Part shown: piece by piece, positions 7,654 to 22,811 of the stretch
Position numbering within the stretch: the stretch's first letter is position 1
Layout of the letters: the number at the start of each line of letters is the position of its first letter
DNA from: a virus
Virus record (IMG/VR): IMGVR_UViG_3300037493_001973
Span: 1 to 24,638 of that record
Reading direction: 5' to 3' (one strand)
DNA length: 24,638 nt
Position numbers and translations under genes: made by a program
Notes under the pieces: generated by a model
Databases searched by the model: none
What the model saw: the letters and a program-made list of their open reading frames with translations, nothing else
Told to the model about the DNA's origin: nothing

Positions 7654-9108
7654 TTAGGCTGTGAACAGACCGTACTTGTTAGAGTTTACAAACTTGTAAG
7701 CTACTTCAGATACGATGTGAACACCAAGCTGCCAGATGTCGGTCTTGTTAGCTGCCGCACGACCACCTGTTTGCCACATGTTCATGAATGCACCTGGCTT
7801 GTGGCATACGCGGATATATTTACCCATGTTACCCATGCCATCATCAACACCTCCGTTAGTACTCAATGGAATGAAGAACGCATAGTTTTTCCAAGCGTTA
7901 TCAGCACTAGTAGCACCAACACCAAACATGGTTGGGTTGTCGAAGATACCCATACGAACAAAACCGAAGTTCTTGTTGTTGAACACGAGGTTGTTGAATG
8001 AGAATGTACGGCTCATCAAGTCAGCGTAAGCGCCCTCACCCCAGAAGGTTTTCTCCATCTGAATCTTGTTAACGCTTATGTTGTAGTTCAACGGGTTGTT
8101 GCTTGACGTTGTTGTGTTTTGGAAAAGACTTTGTTCCATCAAGGCTTGCATATAACCACTAGCCCAAACCATGTAGTTCTTTACAGAGCCATCTTGTGAG
8201 GTCAAAGCAGCTTCCATTGCATAGAAATCAGCCGTATCAGGAGTTGCACCTGTTGGAATAACAGTGCTTATACCACCGCCATTGCTACCGGACTGATTAG
8301 TACGAATTGCGTTCTCCAAACCTTGAGTGGTTTGAAACGAAGTAGTACTAATATTCGGGTTAGTAGTAGCAGCACCAGTAAAGAATGTATTTACAAGAGC
8401 AACTTGGTGTTCACGCTGCAAGTAGATGATGTCGCGTGAGTTAGAGTATGGAGTCTGAACTCCGTTCTCCAACTGTGAGTACCAAAGTTGGTTGTAAAGC
8501 GCCTCTGAACTAGAAGTAGTATCGTTACGGAAAGTCTGCAAGAAAGAAGTCTTTACTGTATCGAAAGTAAACTTAGAAGGATACGAACCTCCGTTTTCAG
8601 GAGCTGAGTTACCAACGTAGTACATCAATCCGTTAGGAGCAGCTGAACCAGCCGTAACCAATGGAACCATTGTAAGGATAAGGGCTGTAACGTCTTTAGC
8701 TGTAATTTGATACAACTCACCACTGGTTGCGTCTTTCCAAATGTCACCCACGTTAGGCCAAGAATAAGCTATGCCACCAACTGCCGGTATAGTCTGTGAT
8801 CCACCAGTCATAGTTACCGTGTATGGACCAGGGGCTGCACCAACACCAGTTACGGTAATTGGAGCCTCCATACGAGTCAATTCAAACCAACGAACACGAG
8901 GGTTCTTCGCGATTTCGCGGTTACCTACTGCGTTCATGATTTGGTTCATCGCATCGAAATACTCATCACCAAAGGGAAGATATGCTACTGCATCGAAGTC
9001 TTCCATGATAGCATCCCAGTTATTCTGGATGCCACCGAATGTCATGCCACCATTATTCGCGTTCGATATCGATAACGGGTTAATGGTGGGACTCTGTACA
9101 AATGCCAT
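7654..9108 (-). CDS. Major capsid protein (HK97-fold, crAss-like type)
   Basis: A 484-residue protein between a scaffold-like protein and a capsid-associated gene. The length matches crAss-like capsid proteins (about 490). The N-terminus is extended and flexible (MAFVQSPTINPLSISNANNG). Residues about 80-190 form a Gly/Thr-rich beta insertion. After it come the charged helix region (YLQREHQVALVNTFF) and the domain toward the C-terminus with NIWQ/WGEGAYADLMSRTFSF-like strands and GFVRMGIFDNP. No separate protease is visible nearby. Its gene is followed by an intrinsic terminator. The HK97-fold call rests on size, order and composition. Confidence 0.75.
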   Translation of the reverse strand: MAFVQSPTINPLSISNANNGGMTFGGIQNNWDAIMEDFDAVAYLPFGDEYFDAMNQIMNAVGNREIAKNPRVRWFELTRMEAPITVTGVGAAPGPYTVTMTGGSQTIPAVGGIAYSWPNVGDIWKDATSGELYQITAKDVTALILTMVPLVTAGSAAPNGLMYYVGNSAPENGGSYPSKFTFDTVKTSFLQTFRNDTTSSSEALYNQLWYSQLENGVQTPYSNSRDIIYLQREHQVALVNTFFTGAATTNPNISTTSFQTTQGLENAIRTNQSGSNGGGISTVIPTGATPDTADFYAMEAALTSQDGSVKNYMVWASGYMQALMEQSLFQNTTTSSNNPLNYNISVNKIQMEKTFWGEGAYADLMSRTFSFNNLVFNNKNFGFVRMGIFDNPTMFGVGATSADNAWKNYAFFIPLSTNGGVDDGMGNMGKYIRVCHKPGAFMNMWQTGGRAAANKTDIWQLGVHIVSEVAYKFVNSNKYGLFTA

Positions 9109-17399: not shown

Positions 17400-17591
17400 A
17401 TGTTTATCGTTTCAATCTTATTGGTTTTATTCTGCCTTACGTTCATGATCAAGAACTCCATATATGGCTGTGGCAAAAGATGTTACAAGACTCGAAAGGA
17501 GGCTCAGGACCACTGTGACCATGATCAGAAAGTGTATATGTGCTGGGAGTGTGAGACATGGCATATAAAAAATAATCAAGAAAATCCTTGA
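17400..17591 (+). CDS. Small membrane-anchored zinc-ribbon-like protein
   Basis: A 63-residue protein, first gene of the plus-strand arm. Residues 1-17 are hydrophobic (MFIVSILLVLFCLTFMIKN), a likely membrane anchor or signal. The rest has C24-x3-C28, then YKTRKEAQDHC, then C48-x2-C51-x3-H55 in MCWECETWH. The ending resembles the 'CxxCxxWH' zinc-ribbon end found in many small phage proteins after a 'YxsKxeA' element. Binding partner unknown. It is expressed first from the divergent promoter, so an early role at the host membrane is possible, but this is inference. Confidence 0.6.
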   Translation: MFIVSILLVLFCLTFMIKNSIYGCGKRCYKTRKEAQDHCDHDQKVYMCWECETWHIKNNQENP

Positions 17592-17618
17592 CAACCTCGC
17601 GTGGTTGTTTTATGTTTG
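17588..17618 (+). promoter_or_regulatory. Promoter for the leader RNA / initiator gene
   Basis: TTG (17588-17590), a 20-nt spacer, then TATGTTTG (17611-17618), an exact Bacteroidetes -7 box. It overlaps the stop codon of the previous gene. A weak hairpin (ACAACC/GGTTGT, 17591-17608) lies in the spacer and could act as a terminator for the upstream gene. Transcription should start near 17624. Confidence 0.65.
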
Positions 17619-17623
17619 TCGAA

Positions 17624-17729
17624 ATATTTCACTCCTCGTTTGCTACGAACCACAGTAAACGAGGGTTGGATAGGTATAATTACTTACCAATTCAAAAGCT
17701 CGCAAAGTGGTTCTTGCGAGTTTTTTTTT
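17624..17729 (+). ncRNA. Candidate structured RNA of about 105 nt upstream of the initiator gene
   Basis: A promoter at its left and a strong terminator at its right define an RNA of about 105 nt with no plausible ORF. It contains hairpin A (CCTCGTTT at 17634-17641 pairing AAACGAGG at 17657-17664, 8 bp, loop of 15 nt) and the terminator hairpin B (17699-17720). Loop A contains GAACCAC (17647-17653) and loop B contains GTGGTTC (17707-17713); these are exactly complementary over 7 nt, so a loop-loop (kissing) contact is possible. It may be a stand-alone RNA or an attenuator leader of the initiator mRNA. The transcription start is inferred from the promoter box. Confidence 0.5.
17699..17729 (+). 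terminator. Strong intrinsic terminator directly before the initiator start codon
   Basis: CTCGCAA (17699-17705), loop AGTGGTTC, TTGCGAG (17714-17720), then nine T's (17721-17729). The ATG of the initiator gene begins at 17733, so the hairpin and T-run occupy the place of a ribosome-binding region. Expression of the initiator must then depend on read-through or antitermination, or be limited on purpose. Confidence 0.8.
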
Positions 17730-17732
17730 ATT

Positions 17733-18410
17733 ATGAACACAGGACAAATTGTTAAGGGGAAGCGCAAGCACGACTTTGCTATTATCCCCAACGAAATCGC
17801 GCAATCTAAGGACTTGACAATGGAAGAGAAGGGTATGCTATGCTTCCTTCTTTCGCTTCCGGAGAATTGGGTTCTGTACAAAAAAAATCTTTACGATCAA
17901 ATGCCAGATGGAAAAAACGCAGTAGATAGGGTGTTCAAGTCCCTGCAACAGAAGGGGTATGTTTTAAGCTGCCGTCAAATAGATCCAGCCACAAACAGAA
18001 TGGTGGGTTGGAACCATATTGTGTATGATTCACCTCAACTTTCCCAAGATATGGATTTCCCGATATCGGGATTTCCCGACGTCGGGGATTTCCGTCAGTC
18101 GGAAAACATCGATATATATAAAGAAACAAACATCTACAAAGAAACAATAACATACAAATACGCATTTGAGGATTTCTGGCTTGCTTACGATAAGAAAGTT
18201 GACAAGAAGCAAACACTTGCTGTATGGAACAAACTATCTGATGAGGATCGCATACTTGCAGTAGAAGGCGTGGGTAACCACAAATCGGGTCGCGATCGAA
18301 AGTACTGGAAGGACCCGGTAAGATATCTTCGAGATAGAAGATGGGAAGACGAGACACAAAACAAAACAATAAAACAAACACCTATTCAAGATGACAATAA
18401 CACATGGTAA
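17733..18410 (+). CDS. Replication initiator with winged-helix N-terminus and DnaT/DnaD-like C-terminus
   Basis: A 225-residue protein. The N-terminal part (about 10-98) is a winged-helix-type domain (FAIIPNEIAQSKDLTMEEKG, then the recognition-helix region DQMPDGKNAVDRVFKSLQQK, then a wing VLSCRQIDPATNRMVGW). Residues about 103-140 are a low-complexity linker with repeats of FPxxG and IYKET. The C-terminal part (about 143-207) has YAFEDFWLAYDKKVDKKQTL and YWKDPVRYLRDRRWEDE, which matches the 'FW..Y..K..K..A...W...P..YL...RW' pattern of phage primosome and DnaT-like proteins. The ATG at 17733 is chosen over 44 upstream in-frame codons because those cross the terminator. It overlaps the next gene by 20 bp. 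Its linker carries the iterons described separately. It likely recruits the primase-helicase to the origin. Confidence 0.7.
   Translation: MNTGQIVKGKRKHDFAIIPNEIAQSKDLTMEEKGMLCFLLSLPENWVLYKKNLYDQMPDGKNAVDRVFKSLQQKGYVLSCRQIDPATNRMVGWNHIVYDSPQLSQDMDFPISGFPDVGDFRQSENIDIYKETNIYKETITYKYAFEDFWLAYDKKVDKKQTLAVWNKLSDEDRILAVEGVGNHKSGRDRKYWKDPVRYLRDRRWEDETQNKTIKQTPIQDDNNTW
18041..18106. repeat. Four tandem palindromic iterons, candidate replication origin
   Basis: Four copies follow each other with TTCC at 18041, 18057, 18073 and 18090 (steps of 16, 16 and 17 bp). Copy 2 is TTCCCGATATCGGGAT, whose TCCCGATATCGGGA core is a perfect palindrome. Copy 3 holds the perfect palindrome CCCGACGTCGGG. Copy 4 is TTCCG-TCAGT-CGGAA. 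Copy 1 (TTCCCAAGATATGGAT) is the most degenerate. They lie inside the linker of the initiator gene (codons about 103-125). The initiator's own N-terminal domain is the obvious ligand. The arrangement is that of the lambda origin, whose iterons lie in gene O. Confidence 0.7.
18107..18170. other. A-rich repeat next to the iterons, candidate DNA-unwinding region
   Basis: Directly after the iterons the sequence is A-rich and nearly free of G, with ATATATA at its left end and two copies of AAAGAAACAA at 18120-18129 and 18138-18147 (18 bp apart), which encode the repeated peptide IYKET. In lambda and in many iteron origins an easily melted A/T-rich stretch lies at this side. Assignment as an unwinding element is inference. 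Confidence 0.5.
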
Positions 18411-20331
18411 GGTATCAATCTACAAAGACTTCAACGACCTGCAAGGACACACAATTACTGTGTTGGGCGCACTTGAACGAATTCGGACTGGAAAATCAAA
18501 GGTTCTTGTCCAGCAGGCGAGGGAAGCCAAGACCAAAAAAGAGGCGGACGAGTTAAAAAAGAAACTTCCTGCCGTTTGTTTTAGCGGGACCTTTTCCAAA
18601 AGAAAGGACTCTGAACTGCTCGAACACTCCGGATACATCGTGCTTGATTTCGATAATGTGACAAATATTGCCCAAAAGAGAAATGAATTGTCACTTATAA
18701 GTTACATTACGGCTGTTTGGGTGTCACCTTCTGGCAAGGGATTAAAGGCTTTAGTACAAATTGAGTGGAAAACCAAACATAAAGAGCATTTTGATTGCTT
18801 GTTGAATGATTTCCCAGATATCGACAAGACTGGACGGAATGTTTCTCGCCTGTGCTTTGAGTCTTATGACCCTGAACTTTACTACAACCCGAATGCAGAA
18901 GTCTACTCCAAGTTGCCGGTAAAGAAGGCTGACCGCAGGTTGCCCCAAAGTACAACTACGGAGACGATCAGCGACGACGACAAGATATTCCAAAACCTGT
19001 TGACTTGGATGACATCTAAAGGGGATGCGTTCCGCGAGGGGGAAAGGAATCACTTTGTATTTAAGTTGGCTGCAAGCTGCTGCCGGTTCGGGATGCTTGA
19101 GGAGACCTGCTACAACATGATGATGACCTACGTTGTGCCTGATGCTAGTTTCAGCCAACGCGAGTGCAGACAGGCTATTCGTAGCGCGTACAGGGCCAAC
19201 ATGAATCAGTGGAATACCGCTGAGTTTACCAAGGATCAGTTGGTTAGTAAAGGTAACCGACTGGAGGTTGACATCGTAATCACCGCAGAAGATGCGGAGA
19301 ATATTGCGGCGAATGACGTGATTTATGCGGAGGAAGTTATTGAACAGGCGTCCGACATTTACCTCCACGGATACAGGTCCGCTCAACCACTTGGGGTTCC
19401 ACAACTCGACAAACACTTCAAACGCGTCAAGGGTGATTTAACAATTGTTTCCGGAATTGGAAACTATGGTAAGTCCTCGTTCATGAAGTGGGAGATGGTG
19501 TTCCGTATCGTGAAATTTGGAGAAAAAGTAGCCATTTTCACGCCAGAAGAATTACCGGCAGAGCAGTTCTACCATGACCTTGTGGAGATCTATTTTGGGA
19601 AGGACTGTACTCCAAACAATCCTAACCGCCCTCCATACGAACTGTACATGAAGGTGTACAAGATGATTGGCGAACATATCTTCATGGTCTATCCCAAGAG
19701 TGTAAGCCCTACTCCCGAATACGTTAAGGAGGTATTCCTTACCCTCATCGTCAAGCACGGAGTAGAACGAGTTGTCATCGACCCATTCAACCAGATGGCA
19801 AATGATTACACGAAGGGAGGAGGACGAAGCGATAAGTACCTGGAGACATTCCTGTCCGATTGTACAAGGTTTGCCCGAAAGAACAACGTGTACTTCGACA
19901 TCGTGGTTCACCCGCACAAGATGAGGAAAGGGGATGACGGCAACTACCCATGTCCGGAGGTATTTGACCTTGCCGATGGTGCGATGTGGAATAACAAGGC
20001 CGATAACATCCTCATATACCACCGTCCGTTCGCTCAGACGGCCCCAGAAAGCCCTATCTGTGAGTTTCACAGTAAGAAGATACGCCGGCAGAAGATCGTG
20101 GGTATAAAAGGCTCCTTTGAGTTCCAGCTACAGAGGAACACTCGCAGGTTTACGTTCGATGGAGTAGACTACCTGCAACAGGCGATTGACGGCAAGTATG
20201 TACAAGCGACAATCGAGGAACCAAAGCCATCAGTCATCCGCCCAAACAGGAACTGGACCGACTCTAAGGAGGCCAAGGAATGGAATGAGGATATTCAACA
20301 CCCGAACGGGTATAAAGAGGCTTGGGAATAA
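18391..20331 (+). CDS. Primase-helicase (AEP/VirE-N-like domain fused to a RecA-like helicase)
   Basis: A 646-residue protein. Residues 1-175 resemble the VirE-N / BT4734-like primase family: the opening HGKVSIYKDF, SGYIVLDFDNV with D86 and D88 (candidate metal ligands), VSPSGKGLKALV (111-122) and RLCFESYDPELYYNP. Residues about 195-270 form a helical primase C-terminal domain (EGERNHFVFKLAASCCRFGM). Residues about 330-600 are a DnaB/Twinkle-like RecA domain: Walker A SGIGNYGKSS (354-363), EELPAEQFYHD, Walker B VVIDPFNQM (D464), VVHPHKMRKG (505-514) and a C-terminal FHSKKIRRQKIVG. It would prime and unwind DNA in one chain. It overlaps the initiator by 20 bp, supporting a replication operon. 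Confidence 0.85.
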   Translation: MTITHGKVSIYKDFNDLQGHTITVLGALERIRTGKSKVLVQQAREAKTKKEADELKKKLPAVCFSGTFSKRKDSELLEHSGYIVLDFDNVTNIAQKRNELSLISYITAVWVSPSGKGLKALVQIEWKTKHKEHFDCLLNDFPDIDKTGRNVSRLCFESYDPELYYNPNAEVYSKLPVKKADRRLPQSTTTETISDDDKIFQNLLTWMTSKGDAFREGERNHFVFKLAASCCRFGMLEETCYNMMMTYVVPDASFSQRECRQAIRSAYRANMNQWNTAEFTKDQLVSKGNRLEVDIVITAEDAENIAANDVIYAEEVIEQASDIYLHGYRSAQPLGVPQLDKHFKRVKGDLTIVSGIGNYGKSSFMKWEMVFRIVKFGEKVAIFTPEELPAEQFYHDLVEIYFGKDCTPNNPNRPPYELYMKVYKMIGEHIFMVYPKSVSPTPEYVKEVFLTLIVKHGVERVVIDPFNQMANDYTKGGGRSDKYLETFLSDCTRFARKNNVYFDIVVHPHKMRKGDDGNYPCPEVFDLADGAMWNNKADNILIYHRPFAQTAPESPICEFHSKKIRRQKIVGIKGSFEFQLQRNTRRFTFDGVDYLQQAIDGKYVQATIEEPKPSVIRPNRNWTDSKEAKEWNEDIQHPNGYKEAWE

Positions 20332-20410: not shown

Positions 20411-21043
20411 ATGGGATTAAATCAAGGTGGTTCATCAAACCGTACTTACCTCAGTATATCTGGCGGTAAGATTGCCAAGCGTGTCGCAGAAGGCACAGCC
20501 GGCTCAATTAAGTGTAACAGTAAAGACGGAACCAAGGTTTGGTTCGAGGAGCGTTACGCGTCTCTTTCGGGTTACATCACAGACGTTTTCAAGCGCGTGT
20601 CTGAACAGGGCTACGGCGACCAGCTCTGTGTTGTTCTGAAGGATGGGGACAACGAGTACCAAATCCAAATGCCGTGGAGTTCACGTTACTCGTCTGGATT
20701 CTTTTTGTCAATGCCTAACATCGATGCCGGTAAGGAGATTACTCTTACTCCGTGGTCAAAGGAAATTGATGGAAAGACCCGTACAATGTTGTATCTCCGC
20801 CATGGCCAGGAGGATGTTAAGTGGGGTTGGACCAAGGACAACCCAGGCAATATGCCTGAAATGAAACAGATCAAAGTAAAGGGGCAGGTTGTGTGGGATG
20901 ACTCAGAGCGCCAAGAGTTCTTTGAGAAGCACCTCAACGACATCTTCCTACCACAAGTTAAATTGGTGGGAGCCGTAAAAAAACTAGATTCACACGCCCC
21001 CCAGGTGGTTGAGGATCCGGACGACGACGGATTACCATTCTAA
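20411..21043 (+). CDS. ssb: Single-stranded DNA-binding protein
   Basis: A 210-residue protein ending in DDDGLPF, the acidic tip by which SSB proteins recruit replication partners. The body (about 10-170) is strand-rich with aromatic residues as in an OB fold (GSIKCNSKDGTKVWFEERYA; YQIQMPWSSRYSSGFFLSMP; EVD-free loop GKTRTMLYLRHGQEDVKWGW). It coats single-stranded DNA made by the primase-helicase. It is longer than bacterial SSB, as is common in Bacteroidetes phages. It has its own promoter, separate from the helicase gene. Confidence 0.8.
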   Translation: MGLNQGGSSNRTYLSISGGKIAKRVAEGTAGSIKCNSKDGTKVWFEERYASLSGYITDVFKRVSEQGYGDQLCVVLKDGDNEYQIQMPWSSRYSSGFFLSMPNIDAGKEITLTPWSKEIDGKTRTMLYLRHGQEDVKWGWTKDNPGNMPEMKQIKVKGQVVWDDSERQEFFEKHLNDIFLPQVKLVGAVKKLDSHAPQVVEDPDDDGLPF

Positions 21044-21054
21044 TTTTAACCAAT

Positions 21055-21097
21055 GCCGTGGCGGGGGATTAATGCAAGCGAACTCGCCACGGCTTTT
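21055..21097 (+). terminator. Long-loop hairpin with short T-run after ssb
   Basis: GCCGTGGCG (21055-21063) pairs perfectly with CGCCACGGC (21085-21093), 9 bp and GC-rich, with a 21-nt loop, followed by TTTT. It lies 11 nt after the SSB stop codon and 16 nt before the next ATG. The stem is strong but the loop is unusually long and the T-run short, so it may be a partial terminator or a site for protein or RNA control of the next gene. Confidence 0.6.
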
Positions 21098-21109: not shown

Positions 21110-21595
21110 ATGAGATATACATACAAAGACCTAGTAAAAATGGTGGCTCCGGCAAGAAGGGCTGAGTTCACAATTATATATGAGTACCTTCACAAAATAG
21201 AGAACCCACAGGACAACGATTTGATGTCAAAGATTAGCAAGCACTTTAGGGTGTCTCCGTCTGACATCAAAAGCAGCAATAGGGTTATGGAGGTTGTGCT
21301 GGCAAGACAGATGTACATGACAGCCGTAAAGGTTTGTTCGACCAAGACCCTTGCCGAAGTAGCCAGAACAATCAACAAGGATCACGCTACAGTCTGTCAT
21401 GCCATGAAGGTAATGAAAGGAGACTATGCGTTTAACACGGTCCGCAGAAATAAGATACGTCAATTCATAGCTGACTTAGAACCAGAACAACAAGAACTTT
21501 TATTAGAATTTTTCGATGAACGGAATCCCGATATACTTGCCACCTACGCCGCCGACTCTAACCGAGTTGCAGCACCTGCGGAATTTGAGGCATAA
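21110..21595 (+). CDS. DnaA domain-IV-like DNA-binding protein (no AAA+ domain)
   Basis: A 161-residue protein. Residues about 35-105 match the C-terminal DNA-binding domain of DnaA: ISKHFRVSPSDIKSSNRV, then VLARQMYMTAVKVCSTKTLA, then ARTINKDHATVCHAMKVMKG with the DH-x-TV element at residues 91-95. The AAA+ ATPase and domain I of DnaA are absent. An ATG at 21053 would add 19 residues but it lies in the hairpin just after ssb, so the start at 21110 is preferred. It may bind DnaA boxes to control or block host initiation, help the phage origin, or act as a transcription factor. It overlaps the next gene by 80 bp. Confidence 0.65.
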   Translation: MRYTYKDLVKMVAPARRAEFTIIYEYLHKIENPQDNDLMSKISKHFRVSPSDIKSSNRVMEVVLARQMYMTAVKVCSTKTLAEVARTINKDHATVCHAMKVMKGDYAFNTVRRNKIRQFIADLEPEQQELLLEFFDERNPDILATYAADSNRVAAPAEFEA

Positions 21596-21782
21596 GCTCC
21601 TCGCTGACGACATGGAATACCCTAAGATGGGTGTATATAAACCCATGGGTAAATACAACCGAGATCAGAAGATAATGCGGTTAATCAACACGCGATTGTA
21701 CGAGCTTACTGGGAATGATATGTACCTTTGGATCAGTGGTCACTTTAATGAACTAAATAAAATAGAAAATGGGCAGAATTGA
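21516..21782 (+). CDS. Small protein of unknown function
   Basis: An 88-residue protein. With the ATG at 21516 its first 80 bp overlap the end of the DnaA-like gene in another frame; the added residues (TLTELQHLRNLRHKLLADDM) look like a true helix, so the long form is kept, but an internal ATG at 21612 (MEYPKMGVYKPMGKYNRDQK) is possible and would remove the overlap. It overlaps the next gene by 14 bp. The body is helical and basic in the middle. No family recognised. Confidence 0.5.
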   Translation: MNGIPIYLPPTPPTLTELQHLRNLRHKLLADDMEYPKMGVYKPMGKYNRDQKIMRLINTRLYELTGNDMYLWISGHFNELNKIENGQN

Positions 21783-22725: not shown

Positions 22726-22811
22726 ACCACCTAAAAAGGTTTGTGGATACATTTGCTGAGTTGCGTTTCATAGCGCAAGTTCAGTTTGTTTTATTCATTT
22801 CGTTTGTGTGA
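22722..22811 (+). CDS. 29-residue microprotein coupled to the membrane protein gene
   Basis: ATG at 22722 overlaps the TGA of the preceding gene (ATGA), the frame runs 29 codons (MNHLKRFVDTFAELRFIAQV, ending QFVLFISFV) and its TGA touches the terminator stem. The peptide is basic/amphipathic first and hydrophobic last, so it may insert in the membrane. The tight fit between coupled start and terminator argues for a real gene, but short frames arise by chance. Confidence 0.4.
   Translation: MNHLKRFVDTFAELRFIAQVQFVLFISFV

Follow-up and report, generated by a model that had tools for sequence, protein, structure and literature searches.

What does a virus do with the DNA-binding domain of DnaA on its own, and is that domain directed to phage or to host DNA? 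The question is raised by a short gene (DnaA-C) in a window of 24,638 bases. The window is an entire IMG/VR virus record; as relatives reach 57-70 kb, it is probably a fragment. The plus strand encodes, in order, an HTH_36 initiator, a BT4734-like primase/DnaB-like helicase, an SSB-like protein and DnaA-C, followed by two small genes and a phosphoesterase; the head genes lie on the minus strand (Table 1). This order is kept in 18 loci of the DnaA-C subfamily as far as the contigs reach, although some loci lack a few small genes. TTG/TAnnTTTG promoters are of the Bacteroides type, and together with the BT4734-like primase they suggest a Bacteroidota host. In one scan of genome contigs no prophage or host relatives were found.

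Table 1. Replication module of the window: features, positions and supporting evidence.
Feature	Position	Strand	Evidence or remark
HTH_36-type phage replication initiator	17733..18410	+	ATG 17733 in frame 17601-18410; phrog_270 replication initiation protein, 5.3e-18
Iteron cluster, three repeats of about 16 bp, putative phage origin	18053..18102	+	inside initiator gene
A+T-rich tract beside iterons, putative unwinding region	18103..18165	+	
Primase-helicase (BT4734-like_N + PriCT + DnaB-like)	18391..20331	+	family matches
Putative ssDNA-binding protein with SSB-like C-terminal tail	20411..21043	+	tail and synteny
Conserved hairpin in DnaA-C 5' leader, 11-bp stem 21055-21065/21083-21093	21055..21093	+	pair conservation
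DnaA-C, stand-alone DnaA domain IV protein, 161 aa	21110..21595	+	Pfam PF08299; synteny in 18 loci; AlphaFold2 and Foldseek
Bac_DnaA_C (domain IV) coding stretch	21221..21409	+	
Small conserved ORF overlapping the DnaA-C 3' end, same operon	21516..21782	+	in nearly all relatives

The DnaA-C frame is open as far as 21053. A start at that position was rejected, as its ATG is altered in three relatives (L002-L004) and the ATG at 21110 is kept. Pfam assigns residues 38-100 of the product to Bac_DnaA_C (E = 2.7e-15; 56.6 bits, above the cut-off of 31.5), a family that is also matched by all 15 aligned DnaA-C family members with E of 0.01 or better. The KDHATV motif, from which the sequence-only reading had recognized a domain IV pattern, spans residues 90-95. 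Neither an AAA+ module nor any further domain is matched by Pfam over the whole 161 residues, which bears out the proposed lack of an ATPase; the AAA+ domain III of a full DnaA initiator is missing from this short protein. The first PDB match found by phmmer is E. coli DnaA domain IV (1j1v, E = 4.5e-4). The AlphaFold2 model, built from 15 syntenic homologues, is all-helical with a mean pLDDT of 78 (about 81-92 for the domain). Foldseek identifies 3pvp and 1j1v, both DnaA domain IV with DNA, as its closest PDB structures (probability 1.0, E 0.005-0.01), and the middle part aligns with them at an rmsd of 1.5-1.6 Å and a TM score by target of 0.79-0.82. Domain search and structure prediction, the checks proposed in advance, therefore both returned domain IV and not a different fold, which would have counted against it; together they show that the protein has the predicted fold of DnaA domain IV without the ATPase. 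The domain is flanked by extensions of about 37 residues at the N-terminus and 60 at the C-terminus, which are conserved across the subfamily.

Wherever the contig reaches, the same gene stands directly upstream of DnaA-C. Its product is very conserved (84-99%) and ends in the acidic tail DDDGLPF, of which LPF is kept in 11 relatives. It matches no SSB/OB family and no solved structure, falls into phrog_19605 (function listed as unknown), and its AlphaFold2 model has a pLDDT of 40. It is perhaps a member of an unrecognised family of ssDNA-binding proteins. The earlier claim that DnaA-C adjoins ssb is thus correct as to adjacency, while the SSB identity is only likely, the acidic LPF tail being the single feature behind it. 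The small ORF that overlaps the end of DnaA-C matched no family.

The residues by which DnaA reads its box are known from E. coli, where TTA is read by Arg399 in the minor groove and TnCACA by helix 434-451 in the major groove; the R399A and T435M mutants are defective (PMC5742627). DnaA-C holds the equivalents of R399, R407, Q408, D433, H434, T436 and H439, with Ala at the position of T435, and the residue equivalent to 423 is not Pro. Its helix KDHATVCHA is identical in all subfamily relatives compared, and the R399 equivalent is Lys in some subfamily members. In 16 of 16 named phages, the R399, R407, H434 and T436 equivalents are Arg, Arg, His and Thr; that of D433 is kept in 14, with Asn in two near-identical Cellulophaga phages, and that of H439 is variable. 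The matches listed in a motif scan (see below) fall into 40 clusters when grouped at 50% identity, and 36 of the 38 readable ones have Arg as the equivalents of R399 and R407; these two positions lay outside the motif by which the clusters were collected. Beside these core readers, residues 397, 398, 400, 401 and 423 are unlike those of E. coli and variable. Binding of DnaA-C to DNA is what we infer from these residues, and binding to the DnaA box is a well-supported expectation.

Proteins of this kind are common. A scan of viral contigs with back-translated K-D-H-A-T-V-x-H-A listed at least 120 matches, among them 111 complete short ORFs and 9 more cut by contig ends. The short ORFs among the matches listed span 50-230 residues, all but one of 110 or more, and these matches include no full-length DnaA and no ORF over 300 residues. 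Several human-faecal "phage" hits proved to be full-length DnaA of cellular origin on contigs without annotation, and were not taken as phage DnaA-C. Named phages with a DnaA-C infect Flavobacterium, Cellulophaga, Olleya, Tenacibaculum and Leeuwenhoekiella, as well as Pelagibacter, Rhizobium, Bradyrhizobium, Sulfitobacter, Aurantimonas and Microcystis, and many of these copies are annotated as DnaA or DnaA C-terminal domain. A Leeuwenhoekiella phage protein search gave no confirmed relatives. Two larger architectures were seen. The protein of L062 (match 8615-8640) has 230 residues, DnaA-C plus an unassigned 120-residue N-terminal part; the latter looked nuclease-like by eye, and a nuclease fusion was discarded as Pfam gives DnaA_C alone. 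In Aurantimonas phage AmM-1 (L235, 702-1808) DnaA-C is the N-terminal part of a protein of over 368 residues. A "replication initiation protein DnaA" was reported for Polaribacter phages in 2015 (PMC4615864). Our literature search found no functional study of a stand-alone DnaA domain IV phage protein. Being common, and carrying annotations in many phage genomes, these proteins form a known, uncharacterised kind, to which the present gene adds one member.

The residue at position 435 follows the host phylum. It is Ala in 6 of 6 Bacteroidota phages and in 76 of 76 readable Bacteroidota DnaAs. Of 10 phages of Proteobacteria and Cyanobacteria, 9 have Thr, the sole exception being Bradyrhizobium phage ppBeUSDA76-2 with Ala. 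The hypergeometric chance of drawing six of six Ala among 7 Ala and 9 Thr, calculated by hand, is 7/8008, or 6/3003 with the two Cellulophaga phages counted once. The host-side comparison covered the DnaAs of Bacteroidota. The Ala/Thr pattern may merely mirror descent from host dnaA, from which the same distribution is expected as under selection.

The box itself can be sought in host and phage genomes. In B. xylanisolvens XB1A, TTATCCACA occurs 99 times vs 42 for the mirrored word (2.4-fold), and in P. vulgatus ATCC 8482 116 times vs 37 (3.1-fold). From this excess in two Bacteroides/Phocaeicola genomes, the host box is probably TTATCCACA, and the usual box probably also serves a DnaA with Ala435. 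On the phage side, TTATCCACA/TTWTNCACA is near or below shuffled expectation and unclustered in the window, in L002-L004 and in five complete named DnaA-C phage genomes. Three long relatives (G001-G003, 57-70 kb, two of them closely alike) contain no DnaA-box clusters; their one-mismatch boxes, against the mirrored word as a weak control, number 17 vs 9, 18 vs 15 and 10 vs 7, respectively, those of G001 being about twice the control but dispersed. The replication-module promoters of the window and its relatives hold no conserved DnaA box; one box-like site coincides with the -33 TTG element and varies among relatives. The only near match in the window mentioned by the sequence-only reading is probably TGTGGATAC at 22742, and it is lost in 7 of 10 relatives. 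The phage-genome scan that it called for gave neither enrichment nor clusters in the window, its close relatives and the five named phages, as expected of a target outside the phage, and leaves room for a non-canonical site.

The phage appears to own a lambda-O-like initiator. Repeats within the initiator gene followed by an A+T-rich tract are the arrangement of lambda O/ori, and by this likeness the iterons would form the origin. Neither they nor their flanks contain a DnaA box; DnaA-C does not have the cognate sites clustered at the phage origin that mark a phage-origin initiator. Among relatives, the iterons are of three unrelated sequence types: TTTCCCGAYRTCGGG, with variants CCGAYRTCGG, in the window, L002-L004, L044, L054 and L073; ACGGAAAGCGG at 15 bp in L046, L104 and L109; and ACCCCTGCTCAAAAA at 22-23 bp in L082 and L126. 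In the latter two types the initiator is 39-57% identical to that of the window. Origin-initiator specificity appears to have been exchanged inside an otherwise collinear phage group (L046, L082, L104, L109, L126). As the iterons change while the DnaA-C recognition helix is constant, DnaA-C is unlikely to be the iteron-specific factor.

Several non-coding elements accompany these genes. The hairpin between the SSB-like and DnaA-C genes keeps 99% of its pair cells over 12 distinct sequences, mostly via G-U changes, and lacks a long T run; it is possibly an RNA control or processing element. In the initiator leader (17619-17735, plus strand), the hairpin loop GAACCAC is complementary to GTGGTTC, the loop of a second, terminator-like hairpin immediately preceding the ATG, and both loops change together to GAGCAAC/GTTGCTC in L002, L082 and L109. 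Across 11 sequences, 26 pairs keep 99% of their cells; in 7 pairs both sides have changed, and 2 of these pairs belong to the loop-loop helix. This count leans towards the structure because the structure was drawn from the same sequences, and the joint loop changes are the stronger part of the evidence. The leader is a candidate for kissing loops or an attenuator. Rfam gives nothing in the window at E of 0.5 or better. An imperfect palindrome, AACCTCGCGTGGTT (17590-17618), falls within the initiator gene's conserved promoter and is an operator candidate.

Of the three functions offered by the sequence-only reading, the occupation of host DnaA boxes is the one we favour, at somewhat short of an even chance, because boxes are not enriched in the phage genomes that were scanned and Ala435 is host-like. 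The loading of a phage origin fares worse. As a replication accessory, DnaA-C would bind the phage origin region and aid opening or helicase loading by the HTH_36 initiator, or form a bridge to host DnaA or helicase. Throughout the subfamily the operon runs from the initiator through primase/helicase and the SSB-like gene to DnaA-C, which is consistent with this. So is the position of DnaA-C in Leeuwenhoekiella phage Arctus_1 and Tenacibaculum phage Gundel_1, where it adjoins genes annotated "DNA replication protein" or "replication protein", but in other phages DnaA-C is not beside annotated replication genes. The phage has its own initiator with iterons inside the gene, no boxes are found there or in the flanks, and the iterons exchange completely while the recognition helix remains identical, which makes such a role unlikely. 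If DnaA-C were the functionless remnant of a dnaA fragment captured from a host, it would be clear why a single DnaA domain is left; this is highly improbable given that frame, length and recognition residues are kept in relatives up to 38% different in protein sequence and that the kind recurs in many unrelated phages.

The third function, regulation of phage genes, is possible if somewhat doubtful. Domain IV would here act as an HTH protein that represses or activates transcription from a small number of phage sites departing from the canonical box. Small HTH proteins of early operons are usually regulators, the named phages place the gene in an early or DNA-metabolism context, and the residues flanking the core readers are variable and unlike those of E. 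coli. However, a regulator acting on phage sites could drift freely, yet the box-reading residues are kept across very divergent proteins; position 435 tracks the host phylum, and apart from the variable site at the -33 TTG element no conserved box-like site is present in the module promoters. A changed specificity of DnaA-C, to which the occasional Lys at the R399 position and the lack of Pro423 may point, could likewise account for the missing canonical boxes, and a part in replication or regulation on phage DNA would agree with its location within the replication operon.

Under the favoured targeting of host DnaA boxes, DnaA-C would be a small early phage protein, domain IV with short helical extensions, that binds DnaA-box-like DNA the way host DnaA does. 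Without AAA+ it should be unable to oligomerise with ATP, to open DNA, or to recruit helicase via DnaA domains I and III. It would act in trans at host oriC and at DnaA-controlled promoters, competing with host DnaA, and host initiation would be blocked or DnaA-controlled host transcription altered. The phage itself would meanwhile replicate from its iteron origin, using an initiator, a primase-helicase and a putative ssDNA-binding protein of its own. More broadly, and more tentatively, stand-alone domain IV proteins may be a widespread, unrecognised host-takeover class that occupies host DnaA boxes by the host recognition code (Ala435 in Bacteroidota, Thr435 elsewhere) to stop or re-time host initiation, with the phage itself replicating from an unrelated origin. 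Phages of at least three bacterial phyla carry such proteins, which are routinely labelled "DnaA" or "replication initiation" although they are incapable of initiation in the manner of DnaA. If they are DnaA-box competitors, phages possess a simple and general way to stop host initiation, and the annotation is misleading.

DnaA-C shares with the bacterial domain IV of E. coli (1j1v) and M. tuberculosis (3pvp) the fold, the HTH and the equivalents of R399, R407, Q408, D433, H434, T436 and H439. It differs in the absence of domains I-III, in its extra N- and C-terminal helices, in Ala at 435, as in Bacteroidota DnaA, and in the missing Pro423. The proteins annotated "DnaA protein" or "DnaA C-terminal domain" in Cellulophaga phi46:3 and phi18:3, Olleya Harreka_1, Flavobacterium Muminvirus, Pelagibacter HTVC and Sulfitobacter phiGT1 are likewise stand-alone domain IV proteins of the early gene region with the same DNA-reading residues, but they have other operon neighbours and, for the ones aligned, an overall identity of 17-27%. 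With the initiation inhibitors E. coli YfdR and B. subtilis SirA, which act on DnaA, DnaA-C shares the proposed outcome of lower host initiation; YfdR and SirA bind the DnaA protein, whereas DnaA-C would occupy the DNA boxes instead.
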